From Thioalkalivibrio sp. (GTDB taxonomy: Bacteria > Pseudomonadota > Gammaproteobacteria > Ectothiorhodospirales > Ectothiorhodospiraceae): 39,410 nt of DNA. The position numbers and the translations under genes were made by a program. The first letter of the stretch is position 1; each line of letters starts with the position of its first letter. Shown here piece after piece: positions 9,373-39,170 of this stretch. The stretch lies in NCBI GenBank assembly GCA_011389655.1, contig JAABTX010000022.1, positions 1 to 39,410 of the forward strand, in the 5' to 3' direction. The notes beneath the pieces were generated by a model that was given only the letters and a program-made list of their open reading frames with translations, was not told the DNA's origin and made no database searches.

Positions 9373-9460
9373 CACATGCTCCTTCGATGGTTCTATCGTA
9401 CCCGTTCCGGGGCCTGCTTTTCGGCGAGTGCCGGTCGCATCATCACACATGGGTTCGACC

Positions 9461-22868: not shown

Positions 22869-25595
22869 CTAGCGCCAGCCGAACCGTCGCCATACCGCCT
22901 TTTCCGCCTCCACCAGCAGGAAGATGGCCACTGCCACGGCAGCGATGACCCCCCAGTGCCAGAGCGCCAGCGGAGCGCTCCCGAACAGATAATGCATCGG
23001 GCCTGTGTAGGTCCAAAGCAGCTGAAACACAATCACCAGGCCAGCGGCGATCAGAGCGGCGCGGCTGCCAAACAGGCCCTTCGCGGACAGGGAACGCTCG
23101 GTGAGCATGCGGGCGTTGAACAGGTAGACGATCTCGCCGGCCACCAGCATGTTCACCGCCAGGCTGCGGGCCACGTCCACGTCGACGCCCGCCTGCGTCT
23201 GCCACAGGAACAGGCCGAAGACGGCGGACACCAGCAGCAGGGAGACGAAGACCACCCGCCATGCGAGGAAGCGGTCCAGGATCGGGGCGTCCGGCTTCCG
23301 CGGCTTGCGCCGCATCACGTCCGCCTCGGCCGGTTCGAAGGCCAGGGCCAGGCCCAGGGTGACCGCGGTAACCATATTGATCCAGAGGATCTGCACCGGG
23401 GTGATCGGCAACGCGGTGGCCAGAAGCACGGCGCCAAGGATGGAGAGGGCCTCACCGCCGTTGCTTGGCAGCAGGAAGGTGATGGCCTTCTTGATGTTGT
23501 CGTAGATGGTGCGCCCCTCCTCCACGGCGTTGGCGATGGAGGCGAAGTTGTCGTCTGCAAGCACCATCTCTGCCGCCTCCTTGGCTGCCTCGGTGCCCTG
23601 AATCCCCATGGCGATGCCGACATCGGCGCGCTTCAGGCTGGGGGCGTCATTGACTCCATCGCCGGTCATCACGCAGACGCCGCCGCGGGATTGCACCGCT
23701 TCCACCAGGCGCAGCTTGTGTTCGGGGGCGGCCCGGGCGAAGACGTCCACGTCGCCCTCGCGGCGGGTGATCTCGTCGTCAGAGAGCTCGGCGATCTCGC
23801 TGCCGCTGAGCGCCCTGTCGGTGCGGTCCAGCCCAAGTTGTTCGGCGATGGCGCGAGCGGTGAGGGCGTGGTCACCGGTGACCATCTTGACCCGGATGCC
23901 GGCGTTGCGACAGCGCTCCACCGCCTCGATGGCGGCATCCCGCGGCGGATCGAGCAGCCCGGCAAGGCCCAGCAGCACCAGGCCGGATTCCACGTCCTCG
24001 TCCTTCAACTCGTTGCCACCGGCACCAGGCTTGTCGGCCACTGCCAGGACCCGGTACCCGCGACTGGAGAGGTCCTGGATCTTGTCCTCCCAGGCATCGC
24101 GGTCCAGTTCGCCGTCGCCGTCTGCGGCCGCCACCCTGTCGCAGCGCTCCAGGACCACCTCCGGGGCGCCCTTGACATGGATCACCGGCTGATCGCCTTC
24201 CAGATCCTGATCCAGGGTGGCCATGTACTTGTGTTCGGCGGCGAACGGGATGGCATCGATGCACTCCGCCTGGTCACGCATCTGCCGTGTGTCCCAGCCG
24301 GCCTTGGCCCCGGCGACCACCAGGGCGCCTTCCGTTGGGTCGCCGTTGACGGTCCATTCGTCGCCCTGCCGCTCCAGCACGGCATCGTTGCAGAGCACAG
24401 CCGCCGTCAGGAAGCGTTTCAGCACCGCGTGCTCGTCGGGGTCGAGGCGCTCGCCCTCCTCTTTCTCGCTGTCGCGGCGGCGGAAGTCCCCCTCCGGGGT
24501 GAAGCCAACCCCGTCGACCTGCACCTCGCCGTCGACCAGGGCGGCGGCCTGGAGGGTCATCTCGTTTCGGGTCAGTGTGCCGGTCTTGTCGGAGTAAATG
24601 GTGGAGACCGAGCCCAGGGTCTCCACCGCCGGCAGGCGGCGGATGATGGCGTTGCGCCTGGCCATCCGTTGCACGCCCAGGGCCAGGGTGATGGTGACCA
24701 GGGCTGGGAGGCCCTGGGGAATGGCCGCGACCGCGAGGCCCACGGCGGCAAGGAACATCTCGCTCCAGCTCCGGTCGTGGACGAAGACCCCATACAACGC
24801 CATGGCGGTGGCGACGCCGACGATGATCACCGCCAGGATCTTGGCGAAGTGATCGAGCTGGCGCAGCAGCGGCGTCTGCACATGCTCCACCTCCTCCAGC
24901 ATCTCGGAGATGCGTCCGATCTCGGTGTGCCGACCGGTCTCTACCACCAGTGCCGTCGCGGTGCCCTCGACGATCATGGTCCCGGCGAAGGCCATGGAGG
25001 CGCGGTCCGCCAGCTCCGTTTCCTCATCCACCGGGTCGGCCTGCTTGCCCATCGCTTCCGACTCGCCGGTAAGGGCCGCCTCCTGGGTGCGCAACCGCTT
25101 GATGTCGAGCAGGCGCACGTCGGCGGGGACCCGGTCGCCGGCGGAGAGAGTCACTATGTCGCCGGGCACCACCGCTTCTGCGTCCACCTCTCGGTGCCGC
25201 CCGTCGCGAACCACCTTGGCCTTGGGCGAGAGCATCCCCTTGATGCTCTCCAGGGCCCGCTCCGCCTTGCCTTCCTGAACGAAGCCGATGGCGGCGTTGA
25301 TCAGGACCACGGCGAAGATGGCCCCGGCGTCGACCCACTGACCCAGCATCACCGTCGCCGCCCCGGCGATCAGCAGGATGATGATGAGGACGTTGTTGAA
25401 CTGCTCCAGCAACCGGCGCCACCAGGGCCGCCCCTGCTTCTCACGCAGGCGGTTGGGACCGTACTTGCTCAGCCGCTGCCTGGCCTCGTCGGCGCTCAGG
25501 CCGTCCTTGCCGCTGTCGAGCCTCTCCAGGGCCACGTCGCCGGAGACAGCGTGCCATGCGGTCTGTTGCGGCGAATCGTCACGGGATTCGGGCAT
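22869..25595 (-). CDS. P-type cation-transporting ATPase, HAD-IC type
   Basis: This 908-residue membrane pump has the full P2-type layout: an N-terminal actuator with TGES (176-179), the phosphorylation motif SDKTGTLT (Asp336), the nucleotide-binding domain with KGAPE, TGDGVNDAP, and ten predicted membrane segments. It is related to calcium/manganese PMR1-like pumps, but M4 reads IPQGLP instead of the usual PEGLP. M6 reads NMVTAVTL without the Asp of calcium pumps, so the cation is uncertain. Many bacterial members of this group lack those residues and are annotated only as cation ATPases. ATG 25595 is preferred because homologues start near this point and AGAGGA lies upstream; ATG 25640 or GTG 25661 are possible. 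Confidence 0.9.
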   Translation of the reverse strand: MPESRDDSPQQTAWHAVSGDVALERLDSGKDGLSADEARQRLSKYGPNRLREKQGRPWWRRLLEQFNNVLIIILLIAGAATVMLGQWVDAGAIFAVVLINAAIGFVQEGKAERALESIKGMLSPKAKVVRDGRHREVDAEAVVPGDIVTLSAGDRVPADVRLLDIKRLRTQEAALTGESEAMGKQADPVDEETELADRASMAFAGTMIVEGTATALVVETGRHTEIGRISEMLEEVEHVQTPLLRQLDHFAKILAVIIVGVATAMALYGVFVHDRSWSEMFLAAVGLAVAAIPQGLPALVTITLALGVQRMARRNAIIRRLPAVETLGSVSTIYSDKTGTLTRNEMTLQAAALVDGEVQVDGVGFTPEGDFRRRDSEKEEGERLDPDEHAVLKRFLTAAVLCNDAVLERQGDEWTVNGDPTEGALVVAGAKAGWDTRQMRDQAECIDAIPFAAEHKYMATLDQDLEGDQPVIHVKGAPEVVLERCDRVAAADGDGELDRDAWEDKIQDLSSRGYRVLAVADKPGAGGNELKDEDVESGLVLLGLAGLLDPPRDAAIEAVERCRNAGIRVKMVTGDHALTARAIAEQLGLDRTDRALSGSEIAELSDDEITRREGDVDVFARAAPEHKLRLVEAVQSRGGVCVMTGDGVNDAPSLKRADVGIAMGIQGTEAAKEAAEMVLADDNFASIANAVEEGRTIYDNIKKAITFLLPSNGGEALSILGAVLLATALPITPVQILWINMVTAVTLGLALAFEPAEADVMRRKPRKPDAPILDRFLAWRVVFVSLLLVSAVFGLFLWQTQAGVDVDVARSLAVNMLVAGEIVYLFNARMLTERSLSAKGLFGSRAALIAAGLVIVFQLLWTYTGPMHYLFGSAPLALWHWGVIAAVAVAIFLLVEAEKAVWRRFGWR

Positions 25596-25806
25596 GTGCT
25601 CGATCGGGTCCTCTTTCTTGGACTGATGTGCACCAGTCATCGACAGCGGGGGCGGATACACACAATCCGGGTGGGCCAGGGACAGGATACGCTTCGGATA
25701 GCTCCACCAATATACTGACCTGGGACTGCCAGGGGCTCAACGACGGTCGGCCCAGCGCCGACGACGGACCGGCTCCGGCGTCGTTCTTCGCGGGAAGGAG
25801 TCGTCG
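25596..25806. promoter_or_regulatory. Leader and promoter region of the P-type ATPase
   Basis: This 211-base gap carries an AT-rich patch (TATATT on the minus strand, near 25710-25716) that could be the -10 box for the ATPase. A CCTGG/CCAGG inverted repeat sits at 25719-25733, possibly an operator. Nearby AACGACG/CGTCGTT arms can pair, but no T-run follows. Evidence is weak. Confidence 0.3.
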
Positions 25807-26613
25807 TCAGAGGTACTGCACCGCGGGCCCCACCGCCGACCAATGCTCATTCAGGCCATCGAGTACGGCCATTTCGTCGTCATCGAGCTCGATGTCCAGC
25901 GCCCCCGGGTTCTCCACAAGGTGGTCCCAGTCATTCGCCTTGGGAAGCGGCACGGTCTCCTTCTGAAGGGCCCAGCGCAGCAGGACCTGCGCGGGAGTGA
26001 CGTCGCGACGGTCGGCGATGCGGCGCAGGGTGTCATCGTCAAGTCGCCGGGCACGTGTCAGGGGGCTCCAGGCCTGGATCACGACGCGTCTCTCCCGGCA
26101 CGCGTCGAGCATCTCCGGGCTCCAGCCAAAGGGTGTCCACTCGATCTGGTTGACCACGGGTGATTCCCCTGCCTCTTCCGTGAGCCGGTCCATCTGCTCG
26201 ATCGAATAGTTGCTGATGCCGATTTCACGGACGAGGCCGTCTTCTCGGGCCCGAACAAGGCCTTCCCAGAGATCGGTACCCACGCCGCGCCGGGGCGGCC
26301 GGTGGATGAGCATGAGGTCGGCGTAATCCTGTCGCATCTCGTCAAGATAGCGCCTGGTGGCCTCATAGGCCTGGTCGTTCTCCTCCACCTTGGCGACGAG
26401 GAAGATCTCCTCGCGCGGGATTGCGGTCCGGCCGAGCGCCTCGCCGATGCCGGGCTGACTGCCGTAGTCGACGGCGGTGTCGATCATCCGGTAACCAAGC
26501 TCGAGGGCACGCTCGACGGTGCCGGCGGTATCCCGCGTCAACTCCCAGGTCCCGAGACCGAAGACGGGCATCCGGCGGCCAGTGTGAAGGGTGACGGTGC
26601 TTTTCAGTTCCAT
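25807..26613 (-). CDS. Aldo/keto reductase (AKR) 2, DkgA-like
   Basis: This 268-residue soluble oxidoreductase of the AKR family resembles 2,5-didehydrogluconate reductase types. The tetrad is visible: DTAVDYGSQ (Asp, Tyr), FLVAKVEEND (Lys) and LMLIHRPPR (His). The barrel ends with LLRWALQKETVPLPKAND, the family's cofactor-specificity loop. Ribosome site AAGGAGGAG is strong before ATG 26613. It is not closely similar to AKR 1, so it is not a recent duplication. The gene stands between the P-type ATPase and repeat copy 2. Substrate not determinable; a general carbonyl or detoxification role is likely. Confidence 0.92.
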   Translation of the reverse strand: MELKSTVTLHTGRRMPVFGLGTWELTRDTAGTVERALELGYRMIDTAVDYGSQPGIGEALGRTAIPREEIFLVAKVEENDQAYEATRRYLDEMRQDYADLMLIHRPPRRGVGTDLWEGLVRAREDGLVREIGISNYSIEQMDRLTEEAGESPVVNQIEWTPFGWSPEMLDACRERRVVIQAWSPLTRARRLDDDTLRRIADRRDVTPAQVLLRWALQKETVPLPKANDWDHLVENPGALDIELDDDEMAVLDGLNEHWSAVGPAVQYL

Positions 26614-26708: not shown

Positions 26709-26991
26709 GGGGTCGGACCAAGCTAACCCATTGATCTCTCTCTCCATAACGCCAAAAAACCCGCCTCACACGGCCCTGGAGCCCCATTTTTGGCACCAAA
26801 AACGGGCCATGAGGACATGCCGACCTGGCCCCTGCCTCCCTTGCATCTGTGCCCTGCCATCGCCCGCTGACATCCGCCTCCTTCGCCTGAAGGGCCGTTT
26901 CTGGGGTCAAAAAGGGCCGAGCAAGACCTGAATTCGTCCTGTATGGCGATGCTTTCCCTGCGTAAACATAGCCTTGGCTTGGTCCGACCCC
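26709..26991. repeat. Terminal-inverted-repeat element, copy 2 (283 bp)
   Basis: Left end GGGGTCGGACCAAG (26709-26722) and right end CTTGGTCCGACCCC (26978-26991) form a perfect 14-bp inverted repeat, extending by a few bases inward (AGC-AA). Internal blocks shared with copy 1 include the left-end AACCC-GAT, an AAAAAACCC block, and a hairpin where CCCC-ATTTTTGG pairs with CC-AAAAACGGG. CGCCTGAAGGGCC and AAGACCTGAA-like stretches are shared too. The orientation is the same as copy 1. Copies 1 and 2 bracket 5.5 kb. It lies upstream of a small secreted protein and may supply part of its leader. Confidence 0.75.
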
Positions 26992-27080
26992 CGCCCCGCG
27001 CCCCCGTGCTTACTGGGCCGTTGTTGTTTCATGCACTATTCTCAGAGCACACGGGCATCTATCTTCGCTGGAGCGTCTCG

Positions 27081-27356
27081 ATGGACTTTCAACTGCTGAG
27101 GAAACTTGGTGCAATCGCCGGGGTCGGCGCGCTGCTGTTCGGATCGCAGGCAGTGCACGCCGAGTGTGCCTCCACCACATTCGCGGAAGAGGTCCACTAC
27201 AGCTGCTCGGGCGTGCTGACGGTGATGCCAAGGAGAGGCGGCGAGGACGCCAACGCCGTTCCGGAGAGGGATCCATCCGAATCCGCTACGGAGTCGGAAC
27301 GTGTCGACGACAGGCCGGCCGCGGACGAGGCCAGCGCCGGGAAGCGCGGCCCCTGA
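27081..27356 (+). CDS. Small secreted hypothetical protein
   Basis: This 91-residue protein has a clear signal peptide (LGAIAGVGALLFGSQAVHA, cleavage before ECAS). The short mature part has two cysteines (ECAST and SCSGV) that could form a disulfide, and a hydrophilic, Glu/Asp/Ala-rich tail that is probably disordered. No family recognised. ATG 27081 has GGAG seven bases upstream. It begins just after repeat copy 2 and converges with the 11-heme cytochrome gene. Codon usage looks normal, but its short length and lack of homologue memory mean it may be lineage-specific. Confidence 0.6.
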   Translation: MDFQLLRKLGAIAGVGALLFGSQAVHAECASTTFAEEVHYSCSGVLTVMPRRGGEDANAVPERDPSESATESERVDDRPAADEASAGKRGP

Positions 27357-27401: not shown

Positions 27402-29009
27402 CTACGGCACGGCGGCATTCAGGATTCTGGTCAATTCCTCGGGACTGAGGCCGCGCGCGCCGCGGCGCGTCGTCTCCGCCGCACGGCCGTCCATCGTAAC
27501 GAAGGCGTCTTCCGGCATACCGTCCGCAAGAACCCGACCGGAGGGCTCGAATGTCCAGCCCTCCTCCTCATGATTCAGGCGTCCCTGCCCCAGGCCCAGT
27601 GCCGCCGACGAGCGATGACAGGCGGCGCATTCCAGGCCGCGCGTTACCGTATGCGGCGAGAGCGGCGCGAACAGCCGCCTGAACTGCGGCCTGTCGAACG
27701 CAGGATGCTCGATGCTTCGGACCATACCCGGGACAAAGGGCACGATCCGCCCATGCGGGCCAACCCCCAGAGGTGGCTGATCGTTGCGGATGCCCCAGCG
27801 GTCGTCGATCCAGGCACCCGGAGTGAACGCCCTGTCAACGTGGTCCCACTGTTCCTGCCCGGGATCGTATTCCATGTGGCAGCCGTAGCACTGCGGTGCC
27901 CACCCGCTGTGGCACGCGCTGCAGGCGAGTCGATCGTGATTTCCGTCGTCGGGATGGTGAGTCGCGGACAGCGCCGGGATCGGCACGCGGCCTCCCGCCA
28001 GCTTTCGATGCAGGAAGCTTCCGCCGGATGCCACCTCGACGTGCCACAAGGGCGTTCCGCGGCGCTCCGTGACCAGAAATTCGGTAGCGTCCGTCACGGG
28101 GAACGGAATTGCGTCAAGCAGACCGGCCAGATCGCTCGGCCACTCCGGCACCGTGATGCGGGGCTGGTCATTTGCATGACAGTCCTGGCACTGGATGTCC
28201 ACCGCGTCGCTGCCATGCTGGAACCCACTCGTGGGTCCCATCACGTCCCGCTTGGTGTGGCAGTCAATGCAGGCCAGGCCCGCCCGATGATGGAGATCGG
28301 CCCTTAGCTGTTCCACCAGGCGCCCGTCGGGCAAATAGCCGAGATTGCTGGTGGCGGTTCGCTGGAGCGCGTCATCATCCACCTCGGCCAGACCGGCGTA
28401 GTTCAGGGCGATCCGCCCAGAACGCGAATGGCAGCCCACGCAGGACTCATCACGAACCCGTCTAGTGAACACCGGGTGCCCGGCCGCCGCTTCCGCGGAG
28501 AGGTGACAGGCAAGACAGCCGCCCCCGCGGCTGCCGATCGCATGGTCCGTTCCCACCTGATGGCGTGGCTGCCCGAGATGGCAACTGGCACAACGCTTGC
28601 GCAACAGCGAATCCGCAGGTGAATCACCGAGCCCATCGCAGCACGAGAGGTCCCCCGGACCTTCCGGGTAGGGTTCTTCGCCAAAGGTGAAGCGGGTGAC
28701 ATTCACCATGCCCCTGCCCGTGTGCATCAACCCTGAGAGGACGTGGGCCACCTCTTCGGCATGGCAGCCCGCGCAGGCTCCGGTCGCATTCGCCAACTCG
28801 CCGGGCGACGCGACCAATCCGTCATGGGCTGTCGACACGTTCGCCGCATCCGGTTTGCCGAGGTGGCAGGATGCGCACGACTCGGAGAGTTCGTAATGCG
28901 GATCGTCGGGCTGTAGCGCGTGACCTTCGTGACAGGACAGGCAACCCGCGTGTGCGGCACCCGCCATGAGCAATACCCCGAGCAGACTGATAAGGAGGGG
29001 GGCCTTCAT
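27402..29009 (-). CDS. Periplasmic 11-heme cytochrome c
   Basis: This 535-residue secreted protein has a signal peptide (LLGVLLMAGAAHA) and eleven CxxCH heme-binding motifs, at about residues 23, 45, 79, 140, 165, 190, 247, 274, 363, 374 and 461. A CCDG at about 123 is not a heme motif. The early hemes are close-spaced while the last is 85 residues beyond the tenth, with a long non-heme stretch between. It does not look like a standard NrfA, octaheme reductase or MtrA. It is the last gene of the operon with a PsrA-like molybdoenzyme and rhodaneses, 188 bases after the DPLGLG rhodanese. A role as electron donor or acceptor for the oxidoreductase is likely; a catalytic role is possible but unproven. 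Confidence 0.9.
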   Translation of the reverse strand: MKAPLLISLLGVLLMAGAAHAGCLSCHEGHALQPDDPHYELSESCASCHLGKPDAANVSTAHDGLVASPGELANATGACAGCHAEEVAHVLSGLMHTGRGMVNVTRFTFGEEPYPEGPGDLSCCDGLGDSPADSLLRKRCASCHLGQPRHQVGTDHAIGSRGGGCLACHLSAEAAAGHPVFTRRVRDESCVGCHSRSGRIALNYAGLAEVDDDALQRTATSNLGYLPDGRLVEQLRADLHHRAGLACIDCHTKRDVMGPTSGFQHGSDAVDIQCQDCHANDQPRITVPEWPSDLAGLLDAIPFPVTDATEFLVTERRGTPLWHVEVASGGSFLHRKLAGGRVPIPALSATHHPDDGNHDRLACSACHSGWAPQCYGCHMEYDPGQEQWDHVDRAFTPGAWIDDRWGIRNDQPPLGVGPHGRIVPFVPGMVRSIEHPAFDRPQFRRLFAPLSPHTVTRGLECAACHRSSAALGLGQGRLNHEEEGWTFEPSGRVLADGMPEDAFVTMDGRAAETTRRGARGLSPEELTRILNAAVP

Positions 29010-29197
29010 GTCTTTACCGACCAGAACATTCCAGGGGACTGCTTCTCCGGATCATCATCGCGGGAGGTGAACCGCCCCCCTTGCAACCGGCACAGCGTGC
29101 CCCGACCCGAAGATCCGGCAGCCGCTTATCCGGCGTCGTCCGTCCCGATTGCCGCGCTGGGGTCGCAATACCGCAATCCTGAGCGTGCGGTGACCCG

Positions 29198-30142
29198 CTA
29201 GCAACCCTCGCCGATGCGCAGCGCACGCCGCGCCGGTGGAGCCGCGGGTTCCGGTGCAGCGTCGGAAGCCGCGGTATCCTCCTCTGGAGCCGCCGCCCCC
29301 GCATCCTCGAGCCCGACCCCCAGTCCGTGCGTGAGTCCCAGACCAAGAGGATCGGGATGCTGTTGCGGCGCGCTGACCATACCCACGCCGAGATGAAGCC
29401 CCAGACCCAGGGGATCCCGCTGTGGCTGCGGCTCGACGGGGAGGTTGCCGAGCCCCAGGTGTTGTCCCAGACCGAGCGGGTCCACGGGCTCGATGTCAAC
29501 GGGCTCATCGGCGGCGGCTTGCGGTGTCGCCACCGGCGGGTCCACGGGCGCCACCGGCGGCGTATAGGCGGTGCGCACGGCCTCGATCGGGATGCCGGCC
29601 GTGGGCATGTAATCCCCATGGAACTTGCAGCTCACCGCCTGTCGTTCCCCGCGACTCAGGACTGGCTGGACATCCCCCGGATCGCTCTCCGGGTCCAGGG
29701 TGTATTGCAGCCACCCCTCGAAGCCACCGCGCAGCGCGACTGCATCCACGCCCGCGGCCCGAAGCAGGATGGCCACCTGGGCCGCATCCGGGGTCTGCTC
29801 GGAATACAGGATCAGGGTACGTCCCTCGGCGACCTCGCGCGCCCGGTCCGGGCTTACGATCTCCGTCAGAGGCAGGCGGCGTGCGCCGGGGATATGCTCC
29901 TCCTCAAACGCAGCCGCCGAGCGCAAATCGACCAGAACATAATCACGGCGGTCCTGGACGATACGTTGTGCCAGTTCCGGAACCGCGAGGCTGTCCTCTC
30001 CGCGCACGATCATCCGCCCGACCAGTTCGATCTGCTCTTCCATCGCGCCGGTCGTGGGTCTTTGTGCAAAGGCAAACAGCACAGCGGCGCCCACCAGAAG
30101 AAACCCGAGGATGATCAGAGGGATAAGCAGCATTCGTTGCAT
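29198..30142 (-). CDS. Membrane-anchored rhodanese-like protein with DPLGLG repeats, inactive site
   Basis: This 314-residue protein has one N-terminal membrane helix (LLIPLIILGFLLVGAAVLFAF), a rhodanese-fold domain (about 45-150; VLVDLRSAAAFEEEHIPGA and GGFEGWLQYT) and a long tail. The catalytic Cys is Ser114 (LILYSEQTPD), so sulfur transfer by the usual persulfide is not expected from it. From about 221 to 277 are three repeats of DPLGLG-x-HLGxG, each with a His, about 21-22 residues apart. The chain ends in Ala/Pro/Glu stretches and a terminal Cys314. SCKFHGDYMP at about 171-180 adds another Cys/His cluster. It sits between the NrfD subunit and the 11-heme cytochrome. Function is unknown; scaffold, metal or substrate binding are possible. 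Confidence 0.82.
   Translation of the reverse strand: MQRMLLIPLIILGFLLVGAAVLFAFAQRPTTGAMEEQIELVGRMIVRGEDSLAVPELAQRIVQDRRDYVLVDLRSAAAFEEEHIPGARRLPLTEIVSPDRAREVAEGRTLILYSEQTPDAAQVAILLRAAGVDAVALRGGFEGWLQYTLDPESDPGDVQPVLSRGERQAVSCKFHGDYMPTAGIPIEAVRTAYTPPVAPVDPPVATPQAAADEPVDIEPVDPLGLGQHLGLGNLPVEPQPQRDPLGLGLHLGVGMVSAPQQHPDPLGLGLTHGLGVGLEDAGAAAPEEDTAASDAAPEPAAPPARRALRIGEGC
29312..29482 (-). repeat. Three DPLGLG coding repeats in the rhodanese-like protein
   Basis: Three units (about residues 221-232, 243-254 and 264-277) share the protein pattern D-P-L-G-L-G-x-H/T-x-G-x-G while their DNA differs at many third positions. They are therefore an old protein repeat held by selection rather than a recent DNA duplication. 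Each carries one His, giving a regular Gly/His pattern. Confidence 0.75.
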
Positions 30143-30219
30143 GGGATAAGGACCCTCTCAATGAACGGATGGCATCAGGGGAGGCAATGTTCCCCGAGGA
30201 TGGCTGGACACGGCCACGA

Positions 30220-31215
30220 TCACCGCAGCAACTCGAGCAGGGCCGGGTCGAAGGCGTTGACGTAACTGATGTAACTCGAGGCCTGTCCCATGTCCACGGT
30301 GAGTTGTCGCAGCATGTAGCTGCCGTAGAGAACCAGAACGGGACTGACCAGCATCCAGGCGCGCCGCGTGCCCTTCAGTTCCCAGTACTCGAGGATCAAC
30401 GGGATCATCAAACCCGGAATCACCAGGAAGACCCAGAACGGGATCGCGAACTCACCCCCGAAGACCATCTGCGAGGCCTCGATCTGCACCCTCGAACCAG
30501 TCGCGAGATTGACCAGCAGCAAAGCGATCAGCGACAGCTTGATTGCGATCAGGACGATGTCGATGCGGGTGAACATGTGGCGCTCGTGCTCGCTGCGCGT
30601 CCCGAGAAGGACCAGTGCCGCTGCGGCCGACATGCCCGAGACCAGGAACAACGGCGCCAGGAAGCCGGTGTTCCAGAATGGACGCGCGCTGAAGGCCGAC
30701 AGGAGGATGCCGGTATAGAAGCCAAGGAAGACCGCGAGAATCAGTCCCCATTGTGCGACGAGCACGCGGTGTCTGCAGGCAAAGTTGATCCCTGCGTGTC
30801 CGGCACGAAAGCGGTCCACCAGCCGGCCCAAGGCTGGATAGCCTTCCCGCAGCGTGCAGGCCGTCAGCAGAATGATGACCGGGTAGACCAGCAGCAGGAT
30901 CCAGGAGCCCCAGGACATTGGCGAGGACACCTGGAAGGTCGTGTAGAAGCGCCAGACGTAGAACTTGTGGCTGAGATCCAGGAACAGCGCCAGCATGCCG
31001 AGGGAGAGCGCGACAAAGGCCCAGATCGGAAGCCTGCGCGACACGAACGGGAAATCCTTTTCGCGGCCCAGCAGGACGATCAGGGAGGCGAAAAGCAGGA
31101 TCCCCGCGGTCAGCCCCCCGAGAAAGAGATAGGCGGGAATCTCCCAGTGCCACACCGAGAGGGACGGATCGATGCCCGGATTGTCGCGGACGGTGACGAG
31201 GACTTCTTCCAGCAT
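30220..31215 (-). CDS. NrfD/PsrC-type membrane subunit
   Basis: This 331-residue integral membrane protein of the NrfD/PsrC family has eight or nine predicted membrane helices. It begins with a soluble DPSLSVWHWEIPAYLFLGGLTAG that is typical of this family near the quinone site. The segment DLSHKFYVWRFYTTFQVSSPMSWGSW matches the conserved quinone-side loop. It would carry electrons between quinone and the ferredoxin subunit of the complex. The order molybdoenzyme-ferredoxin-NrfD is the PsrABC/PhsABC pattern. ATG 31215 is preceded by a weak AGGGA site. It begins 24 bases after the FeS gene on the minus strand. Confidence 0.9.
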   Translation of the reverse strand: MLEEVLVTVRDNPGIDPSLSVWHWEIPAYLFLGGLTAGILLFASLIVLLGREKDFPFVSRRLPIWAFVALSLGMLALFLDLSHKFYVWRFYTTFQVSSPMSWGSWILLLVYPVIILLTACTLREGYPALGRLVDRFRAGHAGINFACRHRVLVAQWGLILAVFLGFYTGILLSAFSARPFWNTGFLAPLFLVSGMSAAAALVLLGTRSEHERHMFTRIDIVLIAIKLSLIALLLVNLATGSRVQIEASQMVFGGEFAIPFWVFLVIPGLMIPLILEYWELKGTRRAWMLVSPVLVLYGSYMLRQLTVDMGQASSYISYVNAFDPALLELLR

Positions 31216-31239
31216 GATGTCGTTTTCCCTGTCGGTGCT

Positions 31240-31782
31240 TCAGGTCAGGTAGTACACCTGAGGTTCATTACCCGTCTCCTCCAGCAGGGCCTTGTGCGGC
31301 CGCGTCGCCAGCAGTCGGCTTACCGTCGATTGCGCATCGCTCAGGAGACCGAAGTGCATGCAGTGTGTCGGGCAGGCACTGACGCAGGCCGGGTCCTGGC
31401 CCTTCTCCACCCGGTGATGGCAGAAGGTGCACTTGTCGATGTAGCCGTCCGGCGTCATGATCAGCCGCGCATCGTAGGGGCAGGCGGCGATGCAGGCCTT
31501 GCAACCGGTGCACTTGCTCGGCTCCACCAGCACGATGTTCGAGTTCTGCCAGGTATAGGTGGCGCCCGTGGGACAGGCGTGCACGCAGGTGGCGTGGGTA
31601 CAGTGATTGCAGCGCTCCGAGCGGAATTCGGTCGTCAGATCGGGGTAGCGCCCGCGCGTGGCCTCCACAACCCAGTCCCTGTTGAGCCCCGCCGGCAGTT
31701 TGTTCTCTGTCTTGCAGGCAACCACGCAGTCACCGCAGCCGATGCAGAGGTTCGTGTCGATCACCATCGCGTAGACCTTCAT
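31240..31782 (-). CDS. Four-cluster ferredoxin subunit of the PsrA-like complex
   Basis: This 180-residue iron-sulfur subunit (PsrB/DmsB type) has sixteen cysteines in four motifs: CIGCGDCVVAC, CNHCTHATCVHAC, CTGCKACIAAC, and CTFC with distal CVSACPTHC. It would relay electrons between the catalytic molybdoenzyme and the membrane subunit. No signal peptide is seen, so it is probably co-exported with the Tat-signal subunit. Its start overlaps the stop of the catalytic gene by four bases (ATGA), a sign of coupled translation and one complex. Confidence 0.93.
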   Translation of the reverse strand: MKVYAMVIDTNLCIGCGDCVVACKTENKLPAGLNRDWVVEATRGRYPDLTTEFRSERCNHCTHATCVHACPTGATYTWQNSNIVLVEPSKCTGCKACIAACPYDARLIMTPDGYIDKCTFCHHRVEKGQDPACVSACPTHCMHFGLLSDAQSTVSRLLATRPHKALLEETGNEPQVYYLT

Positions 31783-33968
31783 GCGAGCTGCTCCTCAGGA
31801 ACCAGTGTTACGAAATTCCCGCGCATGCCGGTACCTCCCATGATCGGGTCGATGAGGACACGGGTCATCAGATGATTGTCGTCTGCGCCACGTTGGCTGG
31901 CCAGCCGCAGTCGCGGATCCTTCTGGCCAAAGCCGTGAACGATGAACACGGAATCGGGGCGAATGCGTTCCGTCACGCGCACCCGGACCCGGTTGCTCAC
32001 CACCCCGTCCTGGTTGCGCAGCCGCACGTAGTCCCCACTGCTCAGGGCGAAATCCCTCGCCACCAGTGGATTCACCCAGACGGCATTCTCTGGCATCAAT
32101 TCGAACAGGGTCGGGTTATTGATGGTGCGACCGAAGGTATGCGCCGGCGCACGGCCGTAACTCAGGTGGAAGTAGCGCTCGGGCGGTCGCCGAGGCGGGG
32201 CATATTTCGGCAACGGATCATGCCCGAAGGACGCGAGCATCTCGGAATACAGCTCGATCCGGCCGCTCGGTGTCCTGAATTCGACGGCCTCCCCGGGTTC
32301 GAAGAACTTCGCGGTGGTGCGCGGAAAGGACTTGACGCCCAGTTGCCGCATCTCCTCAAGCGAACTGCCCACCTGCTGCAGTTGCCAGTCCACCTCCTCG
32401 GCATAGTCCTCCCAGGGGAAGTAGGCGCCCAGATCCAGCCGCTCGGCAATCTGCTTCGCGATCCACCAGGCCGGCTTGCTGTCGTACCGGGGCTCGAAGG
32501 CCGGAAACGACACCGCGAGGGCCGGCTGTCGTTCCGGACTGTTCCGGATGGGGTCAAGCCGCTCCAGGTAGGTGCACTCGGGAAGGACCACATCCGCGTA
32601 GCCGGTGATCGCACAGGGCATGGTGTCCACCACCACCATGAGATCCAGGGACTGTGCGGCCGCCTGGATCTGGTCGGCACTCGAGGGCACCGAATAGGGC
32701 AGGTTCGTACCGTAGACGAACCAGCCCTTGAAGAAGGCATCGTCACCGATCGAATTCTCGATCACCACGTTGGTGATGCCGGCTGGCGCCAACGGGTAGT
32801 CCTTCTGCACCTCCGCCATCCAGTCGGTTCTGGGCTCGGGCGCCTCCGGAACGGGATAACTCGGGAGGCTGACCCTCTCGGGGATGAAATATCCGCCCTC
32901 ACGGCCCCATGACCCGAGCAGCGCGTTGAGGATCGCGATCGCCCGACTACGCTGGGTATCATCTCCGTACCAGGTCACGTGACGACCCGGATGCACCAGG
33001 GTCGCCGGCGCATGACGAGCCATTTCGCGCGCGGTCTCCCGGATCACGTCCGCACTGATGCCGGTCTCCAGGAACGCCCATTCCGGGCTGAACGGCAGGA
33101 CATGTTCGGCCAGCTGCTCGAGTCCGGTCGCGTACCGGGCGATATAGTCCTGATCGTACAGACCCTCGTGGATCAGCACGTGGATCCAGGCCAGCAGCAG
33201 CGCCATGTCCGTACCGGGCCGGATCGGGAGCCAGTAACGGGACTTGCCCGCTGCCACCGAGAAGCGCGGATCGACGGTGATCACCGTGGCACGATTCTCA
33301 ACGGCCTTGATCCAGGTCTGCACCTGGCTGTTGTGAAGGTTCTCGCCGAGATGGGATCCGATCAGCACGATGCAGCGGGAATTCTCCATGTCGGTGCGGT
33401 CGGGCGACCCCACGCCCTCTCCGAAGGTCAGGGCGAACCCGACATCCCGCGGACCGCGGCACTGCGCGAACGAAGGCTGGGCAAACCCGGTCGAGCCGAA
33501 GGCTCCGAGAAGGCGCCGGAAATGGGTGCCGCCGACGCCGTGGGACAGCAGGCAGAGTCGGTCTTCGCCATGCGTTTCCGCGATGTTCGACATGCGTGAG
33601 GCGATGAAGTCCAGGGCCTCCTCCCAGGACACCGGCTTGAAGGTCTGCTGGCCGTTTTCCGTGACCCGAAGCATTGGCTGACGCAGACGGTCGGGGTCGC
33701 GGTACATGCCGAGCCCGCCGCTCCCCCGGGTGCAGAACCGGCCGAGGGAATGGAGGTCCTCCGGATTCCCCTCGACCTTCCAGGGCTGCCCGTCCTCCTT
33801 GTATACCGTCCCCGCGCAGCGCCAGAAGCAGACATTGCAGACGATCGGACTGGCCTCGACTTGTCCGCTGCCGGGCAGCCTTGGACTGGCGCAGCCGGTC
33901 ATCAAGGCCGGCGTGGCCGCACCCGCACCCAGCATCGCGGAGAGTTTCAGGAATTCTCTTCGCTTCAT
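31779..33968 (-). CDS. Tat-exported PsrA/PhsA-like molybdopterin oxidoreductase
   Basis: This 729-residue catalytic subunit of the CISM (complex iron-sulfur molybdoenzyme) family starts with a Tat signal RREFLKLSAMLG. An LMTGC site at about 22-26 looks like a lipobox, so the protein may be a Tat-exported lipoprotein. The N-terminal [4Fe-4S] ligands are Cys44, 47, 51 and 79, and the molybdenum-ligating Cys is Cys170 in SFAQCRGPRDV. The CFWRC spacing and overall length resemble polysulfide/thiosulfate and selenium-oxyanion reductases more than formate dehydrogenase, arsenate or nitrate enzymes. The substrate is not readable. Neighbours (two rhodanese-fold proteins, 11-heme cytochrome) suggest sulfane sulfur or selenium chemistry. 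Direction (reduction or oxidation) is open. Confidence 0.88.
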   Translation of the reverse strand: MKRREFLKLSAMLGAGAATPALMTGCASPRLPGSGQVEASPIVCNVCFWRCAGTVYKEDGQPWKVEGNPEDLHSLGRFCTRGSGGLGMYRDPDRLRQPMLRVTENGQQTFKPVSWEEALDFIASRMSNIAETHGEDRLCLLSHGVGGTHFRRLLGAFGSTGFAQPSFAQCRGPRDVGFALTFGEGVGSPDRTDMENSRCIVLIGSHLGENLHNSQVQTWIKAVENRATVITVDPRFSVAAGKSRYWLPIRPGTDMALLLAWIHVLIHEGLYDQDYIARYATGLEQLAEHVLPFSPEWAFLETGISADVIRETAREMARHAPATLVHPGRHVTWYGDDTQRSRAIAILNALLGSWGREGGYFIPERVSLPSYPVPEAPEPRTDWMAEVQKDYPLAPAGITNVVIENSIGDDAFFKGWFVYGTNLPYSVPSSADQIQAAAQSLDLMVVVDTMPCAITGYADVVLPECTYLERLDPIRNSPERQPALAVSFPAFEPRYDSKPAWWIAKQIAERLDLGAYFPWEDYAEEVDWQLQQVGSSLEEMRQLGVKSFPRTTAKFFEPGEAVEFRTPSGRIELYSEMLASFGHDPLPKYAPPRRPPERYFHLSYGRAPAHTFGRTINNPTLFELMPENAVWVNPLVARDFALSSGDYVRLRNQDGVVSNRVRVRVTERIRPDSVFIVHGFGQKDPRLRLASQRGADDNHLMTRVLIDPIMGGTGMRGNFVTLVPEEQLA

Positions 33969-34038
33969 GAAATCGGATCCCGCTTCTTGCTCGTGGGGGG
34001 ACGGTCCGGGCCTGCAGCCGGGTCCTCACGCGAACGCT

Positions 34039-35337
34039 CTACAGCACGCTCAGGCTGCCGTCTTCGTCCACTTCGATGTGCTCGTTCAGAAAGCGCACGT
34101 TAAAGCCCGCTCCGTCGAGCACGCGGCGCGCCATCTCGGCGCGGATTCCCGTGGCACAGACAGCGATGATCTCCTTGCTCTGGTCGAGCTGCTCCAGGCT
34201 GTCCTCGATCGCTTCCAGCGGAATGTGGATCGCTCCCGCGATCTCGGCCTCCGCCACTTCCTGATCCGAGCGCACATCGAGGATGATGAGATCGTCACGG
34301 GTCAGGTCGGTTGCGGCAAACTCCTCGGGAGCAATGGCCCCGGGCGCCAGCTGGCGCTCGTACTCGATCGCATACGCCAGCTGGTCGCTCTCGACCGGCA
34401 GACCCTCGTCCTTCCAGCCTTCAAAACCATCCTTCAGAACCGCAACCCGGCCGTAGCCCCAGCTGGTCAGCTCCCGGAACGCGATCAACACGTCGTCGCT
34501 ATGGTGCTGGTCGCTGTAGAGGATGACAGGCGCCCGCCGGTCGGAGACCCCTGGAAGTCTCGCTTCGCGATCTTCACGGATGAAGCGGTCGGTAAGGGCC
34601 TCGAAGTTGCTGGCCGGCATCGCAACGGCCCCGGGCAGATGACCCGTCGCGCTGATCACCGGGTTACGGGTGTCGATGATCACGTGACCCGGGTTCAAGC
34701 GTTCCGCCACCCAGTTCGGGTCGGCGTGCAGAGGAAGCTGTGCCCGCCGCCAGTCGGGAATTCCGCCCTGATATCCCTTGACATTGGTGTAGCCCGCCCC
34801 CTGGGCCAGGTCGACCGCCTCGCCCGTATAGGGGCAGGTGGCACCGCCGCAGAAGAAGATCAGCAGGTGGTCCTTGTCCTCAGGCAAGGCGGCGATGAAC
34901 TCCTCCTCGTCCATTCGGGGAAACAGGTGCATGGCCGAAGGAATCGTACCGGAGAGATACGGGCCCCGTGGTCGGGTGTCCACCAGGGTGTAGGCTTCAT
35001 CCCCGGTGAGAATGCCCAGCATTTCCTGAATGTCGATCTCGATACCGGGCGGCAACCCGAAGACGATCTTGCGGATCTGGGTTGCGGGGCTCCCGGGGGT
35101 GTACTCGACCTCGATCAGATCGTTTCCTCCCAGATCCCCGATGCCCTCGGCCTCAGCGAACGTGGTGCTCTCGTTGAAACGGACCACAACCGGCTCCTGG
35201 TCGGGGACCCGGATCTGGATCGTATTGGCCAGGCGCGAGATCTCCATGATCCGCCCCTTAACCGTTTCGGCAACAGATGTGATCGGGAACAGAATCAGCA
35301 CAGCGAGCCCGAGTCGGGCCAGAACACTCCAGCGCAT
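34039..35337 (-). CDS. Periplasmic triple-rhodanese protein, middle domain inactive
   Basis: This 432-residue secreted protein has a signal peptide (LARLGLAVLILFPITSVA), a short beta-rich N-terminal domain (about 25-95), then three rhodanese-fold domains. Domain 1 (about 105-205) has an active-site loop CGGATC with Cys163 (and Cys168). Domain 2 (about 215-315) has Ser275 in place of the Cys (ILYSDQHH), so it should be inactive. Domain 3 (about 340-420) has a regular CATGIR loop with Cys394. It could pick up, hold and hand on sulfane sulfur (or selenium) in the periplasm to the molybdoenzyme encoded 70 bases downstream. ATG 35337 has AGGG eight bases before; GTG 35346 is less likely. It is the first gene of the six-gene operon. 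Confidence 0.87.
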   Translation of the reverse strand: MRWSVLARLGLAVLILFPITSVAETVKGRIMEISRLANTIQIRVPDQEPVVVRFNESTTFAEAEGIGDLGGNDLIEVEYTPGSPATQIRKIVFGLPPGIEIDIQEMLGILTGDEAYTLVDTRPRGPYLSGTIPSAMHLFPRMDEEEFIAALPEDKDHLLIFFCGGATCPYTGEAVDLAQGAGYTNVKGYQGGIPDWRRAQLPLHADPNWVAERLNPGHVIIDTRNPVISATGHLPGAVAMPASNFEALTDRFIREDREARLPGVSDRRAPVILYSDQHHSDDVLIAFRELTSWGYGRVAVLKDGFEGWKDEGLPVESDQLAYAIEYERQLAPGAIAPEEFAATDLTRDDLIILDVRSDQEVAEAEIAGAIHIPLEAIEDSLEQLDQSKEIIAVCATGIRAEMARRVLDGAGFNVRFLNEHIEVDEDGSLSVL

Positions 35338-35647: not shown

Positions 35648-36400
35648 TCACTGTCGCTCCAGCAGCCTCGAAGCATGACCGGAATAGGGGCGGCCCGACC
35701 GGGCCTGACGCCGCGCCTGCTCGACCTGATCCGGGGCAAGGTGCGTCCGGCTGACTCCCATGCACCCCGCGGACATGAGATTTCCCTGCTCCCGGCACCG
35801 GACGTGGGGCAGGGACAACGCATGGCCCAACTCGTGCGACAGGATCCGGACAAGGTCCCCCTCGATGTCCCGGACCCCTGAAGGACCCCGCTCGCTCTGC
35901 AGCACGGCCGTGATGGGCGGCAGGTAGACACCTCCGGCCTTGCCCCCGAGGTCCCGGATGAAGAAGACATCCCACCCGTCGGATGCCGCATCCGGCGGGA
36001 CCATCCTGGCCATCATCCCGGACCTGCGCGGTATGTTCCCTGCCAGTACACCTTCGTGCATGGCGCCGTCCCGGACCTCGACACGCGAGATCTCCACCGC
36101 CCGCCAGCGAATTCCCGCCTGGTCCCAGACCCGGTTGACCCCTGCGAAAACGCGCGCAAGCTCCGCCCAGGTCAGGGTGGTGGTGACGGTCTCCGAATCG
36201 GGGGCGTGGAGGAGATGGACCCGAAGATCGAGGACGAGGGTCTCGAGGTGGTCCGGTCCAGACCCGGACGGCAGAGCCGGCGCATCTTCATCCAGCGGCT
36301 GCGCAGGCCACTGCTCCCCCGCACCCAGCCCTCCGGAAAGGACGAATGAGAGGACCAGCAGGGCAACGAGCCCGACTCGGGTTGCAGATCTTCCAGGCAT
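35648..36400 (-). CDS. Secreted metzincin-type zinc metallopeptidase
   Basis: This 250-residue protein has an N-terminal signal peptide (VGLVALLVLSFVLSGGLGA) and, near the C-terminus, the zinc-binding motif HELGHALSLPH (HExxHxxxxxH). NLMSAGCMG follows as a Met-turn. Together these define a metzincin/matrixin-like protease. The preceding region (LDLRVHLLHAPDS, VNRVWDQAGIRW) is the usual small metzincin N-part. A secreted protein-cleaving role is likely; the substrate is unknown. ATG 36400 is preferred with GGGAGG upstream. The frame before it is not protein-like. It is divergent from the MFS transporter gene. Confidence 0.85.
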   Translation of the reverse strand: MPGRSATRVGLVALLVLSFVLSGGLGAGEQWPAQPLDEDAPALPSGSGPDHLETLVLDLRVHLLHAPDSETVTTTLTWAELARVFAGVNRVWDQAGIRWRAVEISRVEVRDGAMHEGVLAGNIPRRSGMMARMVPPDAASDGWDVFFIRDLGGKAGGVYLPPITAVLQSERGPSGVRDIEGDLVRILSHELGHALSLPHVRCREQGNLMSAGCMGVSRTHLAPDQVEQARRQARSGRPYSGHASRLLERQ

Positions 36401-36532
36401 GCGGCCTCCCGGGCTGCATGATGCAGACCTTGATTGTGTCCACCTTATCCGACTGACCGCACCGGGGATCAATCCGGAATATTCCGTAGTGCACCCCGGC
36501 AACGGCGGCGGGACGGCCGGCAAATCCGTACC

Positions 36533-37747
36533 ATGAGCACCCGCTCCGCAACCCGCAGGCATCGCTCCGTGCACCCGCTGTTCCCGCACTGGCGTTTTCT
36601 AAGCGCCGGCTTTCTCCTGGTCGCCTTCTCGGCGGTTGGGCAGACCTTCGTGCTGTCTCTGTTCGGGGGTGAGTGGCGCGAGGCCTTCGGACTCTCTCAC
36701 GGACAACTGGGGCTGGCTTATTCCGCGGCCACACTGGCCAGTGCCGTGCTGCTGGTCAGTGCGGGACGCCTGGTCGATCACCTGCCGCTGCGGCGGATGG
36801 TGACCTTCGTGCTGCTCGGGGCGGCGATTGGCAGCGCGGCGCTCGCCGCTGCGCCCGGCGTTCTGGGACTGGTACTCGGGTTCTTTCTGCTGCGCTTCTT
36901 CGGCCAGGGACTGATGACCCATACCGCTCAGACCGCGGTCGCGCGGGCCTTTGGCCGGCATCGTGGGAAGGCCGTGAGCATAACGGTCGCGGGACTCCCG
37001 GTCGCGGAGGCGCTGGCTCCAATCCTGGTGGTGGCCGCGGCGGCGGCCATCGGCTGGCGGTCGACCTGGGGGATCATTGCCCTGGTGATGATCGCCCTCA
37101 CGGTGGTGGTTCCCGCGATGCTGCGCACCCGGCCACCCGAGCACATGGCCACGCCTCCAGACGTGAAGAACGTGACCCACTGGACCCGACGCCAGGTCCT
37201 GCGCGACCTGCGCTTCTATCTGATCCTGCCCGCCCTGATGGGCGCGCCGCTGATCGTGACGGCGGTCTTCTTTCATCAGGTGCCCCTGGCGGAGGCCAAG
37301 GACTGGAGCCTGCCCTGGCTCGCCTCGAGCTTCATCGCGTTCGCGGCTGCCCATCTTCTGTCCCTGTTCTTCGCCGGCCCGCTGGTGGATCGCTTCGGTT
37401 CGCACCGCCTGCTGCCCTGGCACCTTGCACCGTTGTTCCTCGCCCTGCTCGCGCTGCACCAGGCCGAGGGACCCTGGCTTGCGCCGGCATATCTCGGTCT
37501 GGCCGGATTGGGCATGGGCGGCGCCAACGCCCTGATGGGCGTGATCTGGGTCGAGCTCTACGGAACCACGCACCTCGGGGCCATACGGGCAGTGGCGCAG
37601 GCCGCGATGATCCTCTCGACGGCCGCAGCCCCGGTCAGTGTCGGGCTGTTGCTGGACCTCCAGTGGACGATGGAGACGGTCGCGCTGCTACTGGCGGCCT
37701 ACGCGGCGGCCGCATCCGCGTTGGCATGGTGGGGCCTGCGCCGGTAG
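36533..37747 (+). CDS. MFS transporter
   Basis: This 404-residue integral membrane protein of the major facilitator superfamily has about twelve predicted helices. The conserved MFS loop between helices 2 and 3 appears as AGRLVDHLPLRRMV, and similar in the second half (AGPLVDRFGSHRLL). The N-terminus is basic (RRHRSVHPLFPHWR). Substrate cannot be assigned; nitrate/cyanate-type or drug-efflux-type groups are possible. ATG 36533 has a poor ribosome site, but no better start is available. It is divergent from the metzincin gene with 132 bases between. Confidence 0.85.
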   Translation: MSTRSATRRHRSVHPLFPHWRFLSAGFLLVAFSAVGQTFVLSLFGGEWREAFGLSHGQLGLAYSAATLASAVLLVSAGRLVDHLPLRRMVTFVLLGAAIGSAALAAAPGVLGLVLGFFLLRFFGQGLMTHTAQTAVARAFGRHRGKAVSITVAGLPVAEALAPILVVAAAAAIGWRSTWGIIALVMIALTVVVPAMLRTRPPEHMATPPDVKNVTHWTRRQVLRDLRFYLILPALMGAPLIVTAVFFHQVPLAEAKDWSLPWLASSFIAFAAAHLLSLFFAGPLVDRFGSHRLLPWHLAPLFLALLALHQAEGPWLAPAYLGLAGLGMGGANALMGVIWVELYGTTHLGAIRAVAQAAMILSTAAAPVSVGLLLDLQWTMETVALLLAAYAAAASALAWWGLRR

Positions 37748-37917
37748 GGCGACGCTTGACTGCGTGACCAGTACCCCAATGCTTCGATGGGATCCTGCCT
37801 CGGAAGAACCGCTTCCCCGCGCCGATGGCGTCCCGGTCTCGCGTGCGCTGTGCGGCGGAGGGGAGCAGGTTTCGGAGGAAGACGAGGGCGCGCCCGTGCC
37901 CGCATCCGATTGGTGGG
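37748..37917. other. Gap after the MFS gene leading to a REP-like repeat
   Basis: No gene or clear terminator stands out in these 170 bases. The REP-type inverted repeat follows and may end transcription from both sides. Confidence 0.4.
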
Positions 37918-38017
37918 CCCTGCAGGAACGAGGATCGCTCGCGAATGATCCGAGACACGACCAGGCCGGTTGGGTGTTGTGAGAAGACCGTTCGCGAGCA
38001 AGGCTCGCTCCTGCGGG
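37918..38017. repeat. REP/BIME-like inverted repeat
   Basis: The left arm (37918-37947) reads CCTGCAGGAACGAG...CGCTCGCGAA and the right arm (37989-38017) is its imperfect reverse complement, with GAGCAAGGCTCGCTCC. This resembles Pseudomonas-type REP elements (GCTCGCGAA / TTCGCGAGC core). The two arms face each other across about 40 bases, as in a BIME. Lying between convergent MFS and DksA-like genes, it may stop transcription or protect mRNA ends. Confidence 0.7.
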
Positions 38018-38024
38018 AAACGGG

Positions 38025-38384: not shown

Positions 38385-38448
38385 CGCCGAGTAATCCGCG
38401 CAGGATATTCATAAACCGCACTGGCGCCACCGATATCACCCGGGCGCG

Positions 38449-38922: not shown

Positions 38923-39170
38923 GCTGGTTTCCTGTTGTACTTGTTGCAGAGCCTGCGAGGGGCTCTCTGCCCCGGATCGCTCTACGGGAGCAGGCGCCGA
39001 TTCAGATCGACCTTCGAGAATGCTACCCTTGCCTGTTGCGCTCGCAGTCCAGCATGAAACGCCCGGCCCGCGCATGCAACCCCAGGCTACCCACCATGGG
39101 TCGCGTCCTTTGTTGCCGCGCTCTCCGGGCCACGTGCAGCGAGCACACCTACGGATCGGGATTCCTCGAC

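Follow-up and report, generated by a model that had tools for sequence, protein, structure and literature searches.

A Psr-type operon of Thioalkalivibrio encodes a membrane-anchored rhodanese-fold protein with a conserved C-terminal cysteine, a candidate sulfur-delivering arm

We analyzed a contig of 39,410 nucleotides from Thioalkalivibrio sp. (GenBank assembly GCA_011389655.1, contig JAABTX010000022.1, positions 1 to 39,410 of the forward strand), hereafter called the window, which carries a six-gene operon for a polysulfide reductase (Psr)-type molybdoenzyme complex accompanied by two rhodanese-fold proteins and a multiheme cytochrome. The genes, designated T, A, B, C, R and M in their order, are all encoded on the minus strand, from 35346 to 27402:

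35337 (ATG; in-frame GTG at 35346) to 34039, minus strand: T, secreted triple rhodanese
33968 to 31779, minus strand: A, twin-arginine translocation (Tat)-type PsrA-like molybdopterin catalytic subunit, with the leader MKRREFLKLS and one 4Fe-4S motif
31782 to 31240, minus strand: B, ferredoxin subunit carrying the cysteine motifs for four 4Fe-4S clusters (Pfam Fer4 models)
31215 to 30220, minus strand: C, NrfD-type membrane subunit (NrfD, 136.5 bits)
30142 to 29198, minus strand: R, membrane-anchored one-domain rhodanese fold lacking the catalytic cysteine
29009 to 27402, minus strand: M, secreted 11-heme c-type cytochrome with 11 CXXCH motifs, a relative of ExtM

The A and B genes overlap by 4 bases and the remaining intergenic gaps measure 70, 24, 77 and 188 bases, so that the short-gapped, one-strand operon described in an initial annotation made from the sequence alone is indeed present. 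That annotation had read the genes as a PsrABC-type trio with a triple rhodanese, a one-domain rhodanese and an 11-heme cytochrome, and the Pfam matches (three rhodanese stretches, Molybdopterin, Molydop_binding, Fer4 models, NrfD, Rhodanese and Cytochrome_C7) agree with it, as do the CXXCH motifs; its picture of a PsrABC-type complex served by rhodaneses that handle sulfane sulfur is likewise supported by Pfam, NCBIfam, the match to PDB entry 2vpw and the alignment of T. What it had missed is that R has lost its active-site cysteine and has a conserved cysteine at its terminus. The operon is real, conserved and of the Psr kind, and R is its distinctive part.

In the structure model of R, a helix (residues 6-26) is followed by a rhodanese domain at about residues 48-150, with predicted local distance difference test (pLDDT) values mostly above 90, and by a tail with pLDDT of about 40-60 that runs up to Cys314. 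This tail is predicted to be disordered, has DPLGLGL-type repeats and ends in Cys314 (codon 29203-29201), while the active-site position is taken by Ser114 (codon 29803-29801) and not by cysteine. In structure comparison the folded domain resembles rhodaneses (best Z of 14.1 over 110 aligned residues, root-mean-square deviation 3.9), and neither DsrC nor SoxY was among the listed matches. To place these features in a wider set we used the best 80 (L040-L119) of at least 541 relatives obtained by a PsrA-alignment scan of named genomes, and built gene families from the open reading frames (ORFs) of these 80 loci. Of the 80 complete R proteins, all but one (79) carry a cysteine among their three final residues, 68 of them at the very last position; these counts include one contig twice (L017 = L060). 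The same position held no cysteine in A (0/84), B (0/88), C (0/84), M (0/26), T (0/19), the transporter-like protein Y1 (0/58) or the two-domain rhodanese Rh2 (0/11); a cysteine was present there in 3 of 55 copies of Y2, the partner of Y1, and in 60 of 1354 other ORFs of at least 150 aa. In an alignment of 78 R proteins (score above 100 bits, duplicates and L040/L060 dropped, window R included; three remote Marinifilum proteins counted among the 80 were left out), the active-site residue was S in 62, G in 10, A in 4, D in 2 and Cys in none, so the catalytic active-loop cysteine of an active single-domain rhodanese is lacking in all 78. The terminal cysteine was aligned in 75 of them, with a gap in 3, and 41 have exactly one cysteine after residue 30; among 19 aligned R proteins the last cysteine is the only invariant one. 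R thus has a conserved cysteine on a C-terminal arm predicted to be flexible, comparable to those of DsrC and SoxY. As a control we took 39 complete other rhodanese ORFs from 12 host genomes (36 stretches, a part of the other rhodanese matches in these genomes): none ends in cysteine, and the active-loop cysteine was recognized by the pattern used in 26.

By its sequence, A falls among the Psr/Phs molybdoenzymes. Of the proteins with solved structures, the Thermus polysulfide reductase PsrA (PDB 2vpw; 653 bits, 725 residues aligned) is the nearest to it, and Cys170 of A aligns with the cysteine at the Mo-ligand position of that protein. The Thermus thermophilus PsrABC structure, titled thiosulfate reductase, shares with the window this Mo-position cysteine and the 4Fe-4S motif in A, and its B and C subunits are of the same general type. 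A Tat-type catalytic subunit with a 4Fe-4S motif and Mo-cysteine, encoded together with a four-cluster ferredoxin and NrfD, is what characterizes PsrABC/PhsABC among the complex iron-sulfur molybdoenzymes (CISM), and the operon of the window has all of these. The TAT_signal (19.8 bits) and Molybdop_Fe4S4 (21.3 bits) matches of A stay just under their cut-offs, 22.7 each, and the RR and cysteine motifs themselves are clear. Narrower assignments were rejected: A reaches 447.9 bits with the PhsA equivalog model (NCBIfam NF012032, cut-off 694) and is 30.6% identical to plasmid PhsA; it scores 136.6 against 1600 bits for ArrA and 45.5 against 1750 bits for TtrA (NCBIfam), and lies further under the cut-offs of the DMSO- and selenate-type models than under that of PhsA. 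SoeA of the SoeABC sulfite dehydrogenase is cytoplasmic and without Tat signal (PMC6620896; papers given here by PubMed Central (PMC) number are drawn on in excerpts), in contrast to A with its RR leader. A maximum-likelihood tree of 77 PsrA, quickly made and with SH-aLRT (Shimodaira-Hasegawa-like approximate likelihood ratio test) support only, no bootstrap, places every R-positive PsrA in one clade (support 100) of 48 rows, 45 of them with R; the other three (L044, L067 and L082) stop at contig edges before the expected position of R. Nearest outside this clade are Thermus PsrA and a T-type deltaproteobacterial group, the place of Thermus being unsure owing to its long branch. In one locus (L112:4919-7165) PsrA is split in two ORFs, by a frameshift or an assembly error.

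The initial annotation had held that the arrangement stands out and had made the case depend on the rhodanese and cytochrome genes being kept together with A. Four other Thioalkalivibrio genomes carry the set by tblastn, the search for the same six-gene order giving all six genes in two (L016 and L017) and partial sets on contig fragments in the others (L018, L019/L020), and therefore the arrangement is conserved and not due to chance. In a family sample of 47 genomes, the cytochrome gene gave matches with E below 1e-150 in 5, all of them Thioalkalivibrio, and weak matches in 4 more. A phylum scan with the single query P0002 (E at most 1e-120, at most two candidates scored per genome) matched only the window genome among 398, which says little. 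The best 80 loci belong to Gammaproteobacteria, Acetobacteraceae, Bacteroidota, Calditrichota, KSB1, Neomarinimicrobiota and one delta lineage, and the A-B-C-R core recurs across Pseudomonadota, Bacteroidota, Calditrichota, KSB1, Neomarinimicrobiota and a deltaproteobacterial lineage. R (above 60 bits) was detected in 70 of the 80. Where the sequence reaches beyond 3 kb on the upstream side of A and 5 kb on the downstream side, 48 of 48 loci have R, L087, L094 and L104 through a distantly R-like protein encoded ahead of A. In each of the ten loci lacking R, the sequence stops no more than 2,680 bases past A. The rhodanese R is kept with A; the cytochrome M is kept in some lineages only (22 of the 80), and Rh2, which is ExtH-like, in 11. 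With the core so widespread and a triple rhodanese in a Psr operon already published, the claim of an outstanding arrangement holds only in part. A MerR-type regulator, recognized by eye, lies directly upstream of A in eight loci of Calditrichota, KSB1 and Neomarinimicrobiota (L071, L074, L081, L084, L103, L106, L110 and L114), and its effector could reveal the substrate.

T consists of an N-terminal beta domain, a first rhodanese domain with CGGxTCPxT, a second without catalytic cysteine and a third with CxxGxR. Its structure model has a mean pLDDT of 89.3, and all three domains match rhodaneses. Three cysteines are invariant in 17 aligned T proteins from Thioalkalivibrio and other Gammaproteobacteria, in which the catalytic cysteine of domain 2 is not conserved:

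34851-34849, minus strand: codon of T Cys166, in domain 1
34836-34834, minus strand: codon of T Cys171, in domain 1
34158-34156, minus strand: codon of T Cys397, in domain 3

T was found in 12 of the 80 loci and a pair of YeeE/YedE-type proteins, Y1 and Y2, in 56. Y1 and Y2 match Pfam Sulf_transp, with weak NCBIfam matches that name thiosulfate (TsuA) and selenium (YedE) transporters. Only L098 has both T and the pair, which lies distally there, on the opposite strand; since the two are almost never found together, T of the window occupies the place held by the sulfur transporter pair in other lineages. The tails of R follow the same division: the DPLGLGL type occurs in 13 of the 15 loci with T, in none of the 51 with transporters and in 1 of the remaining 9 (L017/L060 being the same contig). 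Next to the T-Psr operon of L032, L035, L045, L046, L064 and L098 there is a second electron-transfer set (an ExtKL-like 5-heme cytochrome, a ferredoxin and NrfD), of which L043 has only the cytochrome, at a contig end; the sets of L032 and L046 also have a 4-heme protein, and the ExtKL model gives 56 bits on the L046 copy.

Furthermore, we compared tails within a locus. Six Bacteroidota loci encode two terminal-cysteine R proteins (R1 and R2), whose bodies are 22-32% identical, yet 9 to 12 of the last 12 residues up to the cysteine agree, with a mean of 10.3 within loci against 6.9 across loci. On permutation of the pairing, only 1 of 720 arrangements, the true one, reached the observed sum. 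The shared residues use different codons at 3-8 positions, therefore recent gene conversion is unlikely as the cause. Matched tails are what one expects if both tails were to dock in one common partner. The Y2 proteins of L050, L052 and L075 have a proline/alanine-rich extension ending in EGC, like R of the same locus, though just 3-6 of the last 12 residues agree.

Terminal cysteines were also noticed beyond R. In the phylum of the deltaproteobacterial host (G809), 81 of 297 genomes matched PsrA (E at most 1e-120, at most three candidates scored per genome), and forty stretches were examined. The three nearest loci (G809's L079, L151 and L152) have the order A-B-C-Y1-Y2-R and LKGC tails. The sister group, L153-L160, is without R and has T in 3 of 8 loci; all three T-bearing loci have, shortly past the Psr genes, an ORF (68-121 residues) that combines a signal-like sequence with a lysine-rich stretch and ends in KKE[VML]SGC:

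L153:10915-11127: lysine-rich secreted-type peptide ending SGC
L158:11375-11578: lysine-rich secreted-type peptide ending SGC
L159:10892-11254: lysine-rich secreted-type peptide ending SGC

These peptides would represent the arm without its scaffold. The same three loci have a small secreted-type protein ending in AGC before T. In the remoter Psr tiers the KKE[VML]SGC-type peptide was found in 0 of 13 and 0 of 17, and the second PsrA locus of G1006 (L191) has neither T nor R.

Similar observations were made with the ext cluster. An ExtM scan of 297 genomes of this deltaproteobacterial phylum gave seven matches over the cut-off, and all seven stretches were examined. ExtH exceeds its NCBIfam cut-off in four of them (291-523 bits), and all four proteins end in -GC; ExtJ exceeds its cut-off (52.5) with 61.7-81.3 bits in L222, L223, L226 and L228, each of the four copies having QGC as its end. 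Of the three stretches without ExtH over the cut-off, L225 shows no ExtH, L227 breaks off shortly past ExtM, and L226 has another rhodanese. Ext genes also lie near T-Psr operons, with other genes between: in G964 the start of ExtH lies about 3.9 kb and that of ExtM about 6.6 kb past the operon, and in G909 ExtM starts about 3.9 kb past it. M of the window matches ExtM over its full length at 205.9 bits and does not reach the equivalog cut-off of 800 (NF040943), which makes it a relative and not a member. Proteins with a terminal cysteine thus mark Psr and Ext systems alike, a pattern into which the ExtM-like M of the window fits. In Bacteroidota, L080 encodes at 6245-8995 an ExtM-like 11-heme protein fused to a cytochrome b-like membrane part, with a Rieske-like neighbor at 8999-9403; by eye it looks as if ExtM, ExtO and ExtP were joined.

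We argue that these observations are best explained by a Psr-type complex to which the substrate is delivered on the terminal-cysteine arm of R, and we give this a probability of roughly 0.55. T would bind periplasmic sulfane sulfur on its cysteines and pass it, as persulfide or polysulfide, to the terminal cysteine of R, whose tail would swing it into the funnel of PsrA, where molybdenum would make or break the S-S bond; electrons would travel to or from quinone through B and C, and M probably connects the complex with electron partners in the periplasm or outer membrane. Where T is missing, the neighboring place is in most lineages held by the YeeE/YedE-type pair. Least certain in this scheme are its direction and the exact substrate. 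Ubiquinol is an energetically poor donor for the reduction of polysulfide. UbiG was over the cut-off in all 17 proteobacterial hosts searched (of 23), and in 14 of these 17 both menD over the cut-off and PF02621 were absent. Because of the poor energetics and the lack of a menaquinone marker, a net oxidative role is likely in these 14: in ubiquinone-only hosts sulfide or sulfane sulfur would likely be loaded onto the arm and the electrons passed to ubiquinone. menD was over the cut-off in T. paradoxus (G014), G794 and G797, and in menaquinone hosts the complex may be reductive. A broader version of the proposal, which we hold only tentatively and at somewhat less than even odds, is that R, ExtH, ExtJ, Y2 and the small peptides form a so far unrecognized class of periplasmic terminal-cysteine chalcogen carriers, portable from one scaffold to another and serving both Psr and Ext, with a protein-bound persulfide or perselenide as substrate, and that the reversed complex would act as a carrier-persulfide:quinone oxidoreductase in ubiquinone-only sulfur oxidizers.

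For the arm hypothesis the sequence pattern is strongly supported and the chemistry is unproven, and several observations weigh against it. The reach of the arm into the PsrA site is something we infer. The second R of L092, a short protein, is the sole complete R without a terminal cysteine, and in the Marinifilum loci (L087, L094 and L104) R is represented only by a distantly R-like protein of 65-66 bits, encoded upstream of the Psr genes, that carries both an active-loop-type cysteine and a terminal one. The permutation of tails treated its six loci as exchangeable, all being Bacteroidota. Five of the eight sister-group loci show no terminal-cysteine ORF, two of them (L157 and L160) being cut by contig ends; L173, one of the remoter 13, has a 325-residue terminal-cysteine ORF that passes the filter and looks unrelated; and the two-domain rhodanese beside ExtM in L226, which is not ExtH (17.8 bits, cut-off 200), has no terminal cysteine. 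Many host genomes are metagenome-assembled, so absences are weak evidence. T. paradoxus, the closest named host, has menD and the oxidative direction is not forced there; this, together with gaps in assembled genomes, tempers the oxidative reading.

If the complex were an ordinary Psr/Phs reductase of polysulfide, sulfur or thiosulfate, free polysulfide would enter the enzyme, the rhodaneses would mobilize sulfur and the terminal cysteine of R would be incidental or auxiliary. We consider this unlikely, as it leaves unexplained the conserved terminal cysteine, the loss of the catalytic cysteine and the locus-matched tails, and would require an unfavorable ubiquinol-driven reduction in the 14 hosts without the tested menaquinone markers. 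The Thermus enzyme as closest solved relative and the PhsA score speak for it, as do the Psr operon of Desulfurivibrio dismutans, which includes a triple rhodanese and is upregulated in sulfur disproportionation (PMC12142623), and the haloarchaeal Psr operons with rhodaneses proposed to bind polysulfide (PMC6176080). The cysteine could instead be a tether or assembly feature (a disulfide to PsrA or T, a metal ligand or a sorting tag) and not a carrier; a terminal cysteine by itself does not prove sulfur loading, and docking peptides would also give locus-matched tails in paralogues. The occurrence of the cysteine on unrelated scaffolds (rhodanese, YeeE-type transporter and small secreted proteins), beside chalcogen-related redox operons, makes this explanation distinctly unlikely. 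Respiration or detoxification of selenite or tellurite, Srr-like or Ext-like, with R, ExtH and ExtJ holding selenium as perselenide, seems improbable for a genus that lives by sulfur oxidation and for operons whose YeeE/YedE-type partners are Pfam Sulf_transp proteins, though their weak NCBIfam matches include YedE beside TsuA. On its side are the relationship of M to ExtM, the ExtH-like Rh2, ExtKL-like c5 and porins that adjoin these operons in several lineages, and the ext genes near the T-Psr operons of G909 and G964; moreover, loss of extI affects selenite and tellurite reduction (PMC5877670), and a PsrA-like selenite reductase operon includes rhodanese proteins (PMC12481199). A link to selenium as such gains support from the sequences, as M is a relative of ExtM, and ExtH and ExtJ share the terminal cysteine of R.

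Sud of Wolinella is a rhodanese-related protein, and DsrC and SoxY use C-terminal cysteine arms. What R would share with all three is the holding of sulfur on a protein that serves a respiratory enzyme, Sud doing so with a polysulfide chain (PMC3397948), and the resemblance is an analogy of mechanism only: R appears to differ from DsrC and SoxY in its rhodanese fold, its membrane anchor and the position of its terminal cysteine on a predicted-disordered tail. By this analogy R may play, in the periplasm and towards a molybdoenzyme, the part that DsrC has for DsrAB and SoxY for the Sox proteins. The operon of D. dismutans (RS06465-06490) resembles that of the window in having Psr genes and a signal-peptide protein with three rhodanese domains, and a terminal-cysteine R is not mentioned in the excerpts of its description (PMC12142623); D. 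dismutans is an anaerobic disproportionator, whereas the genus of the window consists of sulfur oxidizers. The srr operon of Bacillus selenitireducens (srrA-F, with rhodanese proteins and the chaperone srrD) is similar by description, with a Tat catalytic subunit, a four-cluster small subunit, a membrane anchor and rhodanese proteins; the window, in contrast, has no chaperone family by Pfam among its six genes, and no multiheme cytochrome is named for Srr in the excerpts (PMC12481199). In Geobacter the cluster extHIJKLMNOPQS has been linked to selenite and tellurite (PMC5877670); it resembles the window in ExtM and in the -GC ends of ExtH and ExtJ, which R shares, and differs in that the window operon lacks a porin, ExtH, ExtJ, a Rieske protein and cytochrome b and has M under the ExtM cut-off. 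Other candidates did not match: the metallopterin-dependent ergothioneine synthase, a molybdoenzyme with persulfide relay cysteines, is a fused cysteine desulfurase and acetylene-hydratase-related module (PMC9516567), the YTD clusters of cable bacteria have YeeE in an otherwise different gene set (PMC13047784), and a SoeABC-like arsenite candidate is without Tat (PMC6620896). Two points are already in print, the triple rhodanese in a Psr operon (PMC12142623) and, as a proposal, the carriage of polysulfide by the rhodaneses of haloarchaeal Psr operons (PMC6176080). No passage on the operon was found in the excerpts of two Thioalkalivibrio gene surveys (PMC6382920, PMC5328954), and no description of a terminal-cysteine arm of the R kind in those of the open-licence PMC full-text literature. 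How insoluble or unstable sulfane sulfur reaches polysulfide reductases is an open question which such an arm addresses; if true, it would add another design of the swinging-arm kind to DsrC and SoxY, account for the persistence of rhodaneses lacking the catalytic cysteine in these operons, and tie sulfur respiration or oxidation to the ext selenite/tellurite cluster.

Past M, a small convergent plus-strand ORF (26943-27356) has a possible signal peptide and no Pfam match. The genes flanking the operon in the window look unrelated to it: at 35648-39075 they encode a weakly M7-peptidase-like protein and MFS, DksA-type and Usp proteins, and at 22869-26613 an aldo/keto reductase and a P-type cation ATPase.

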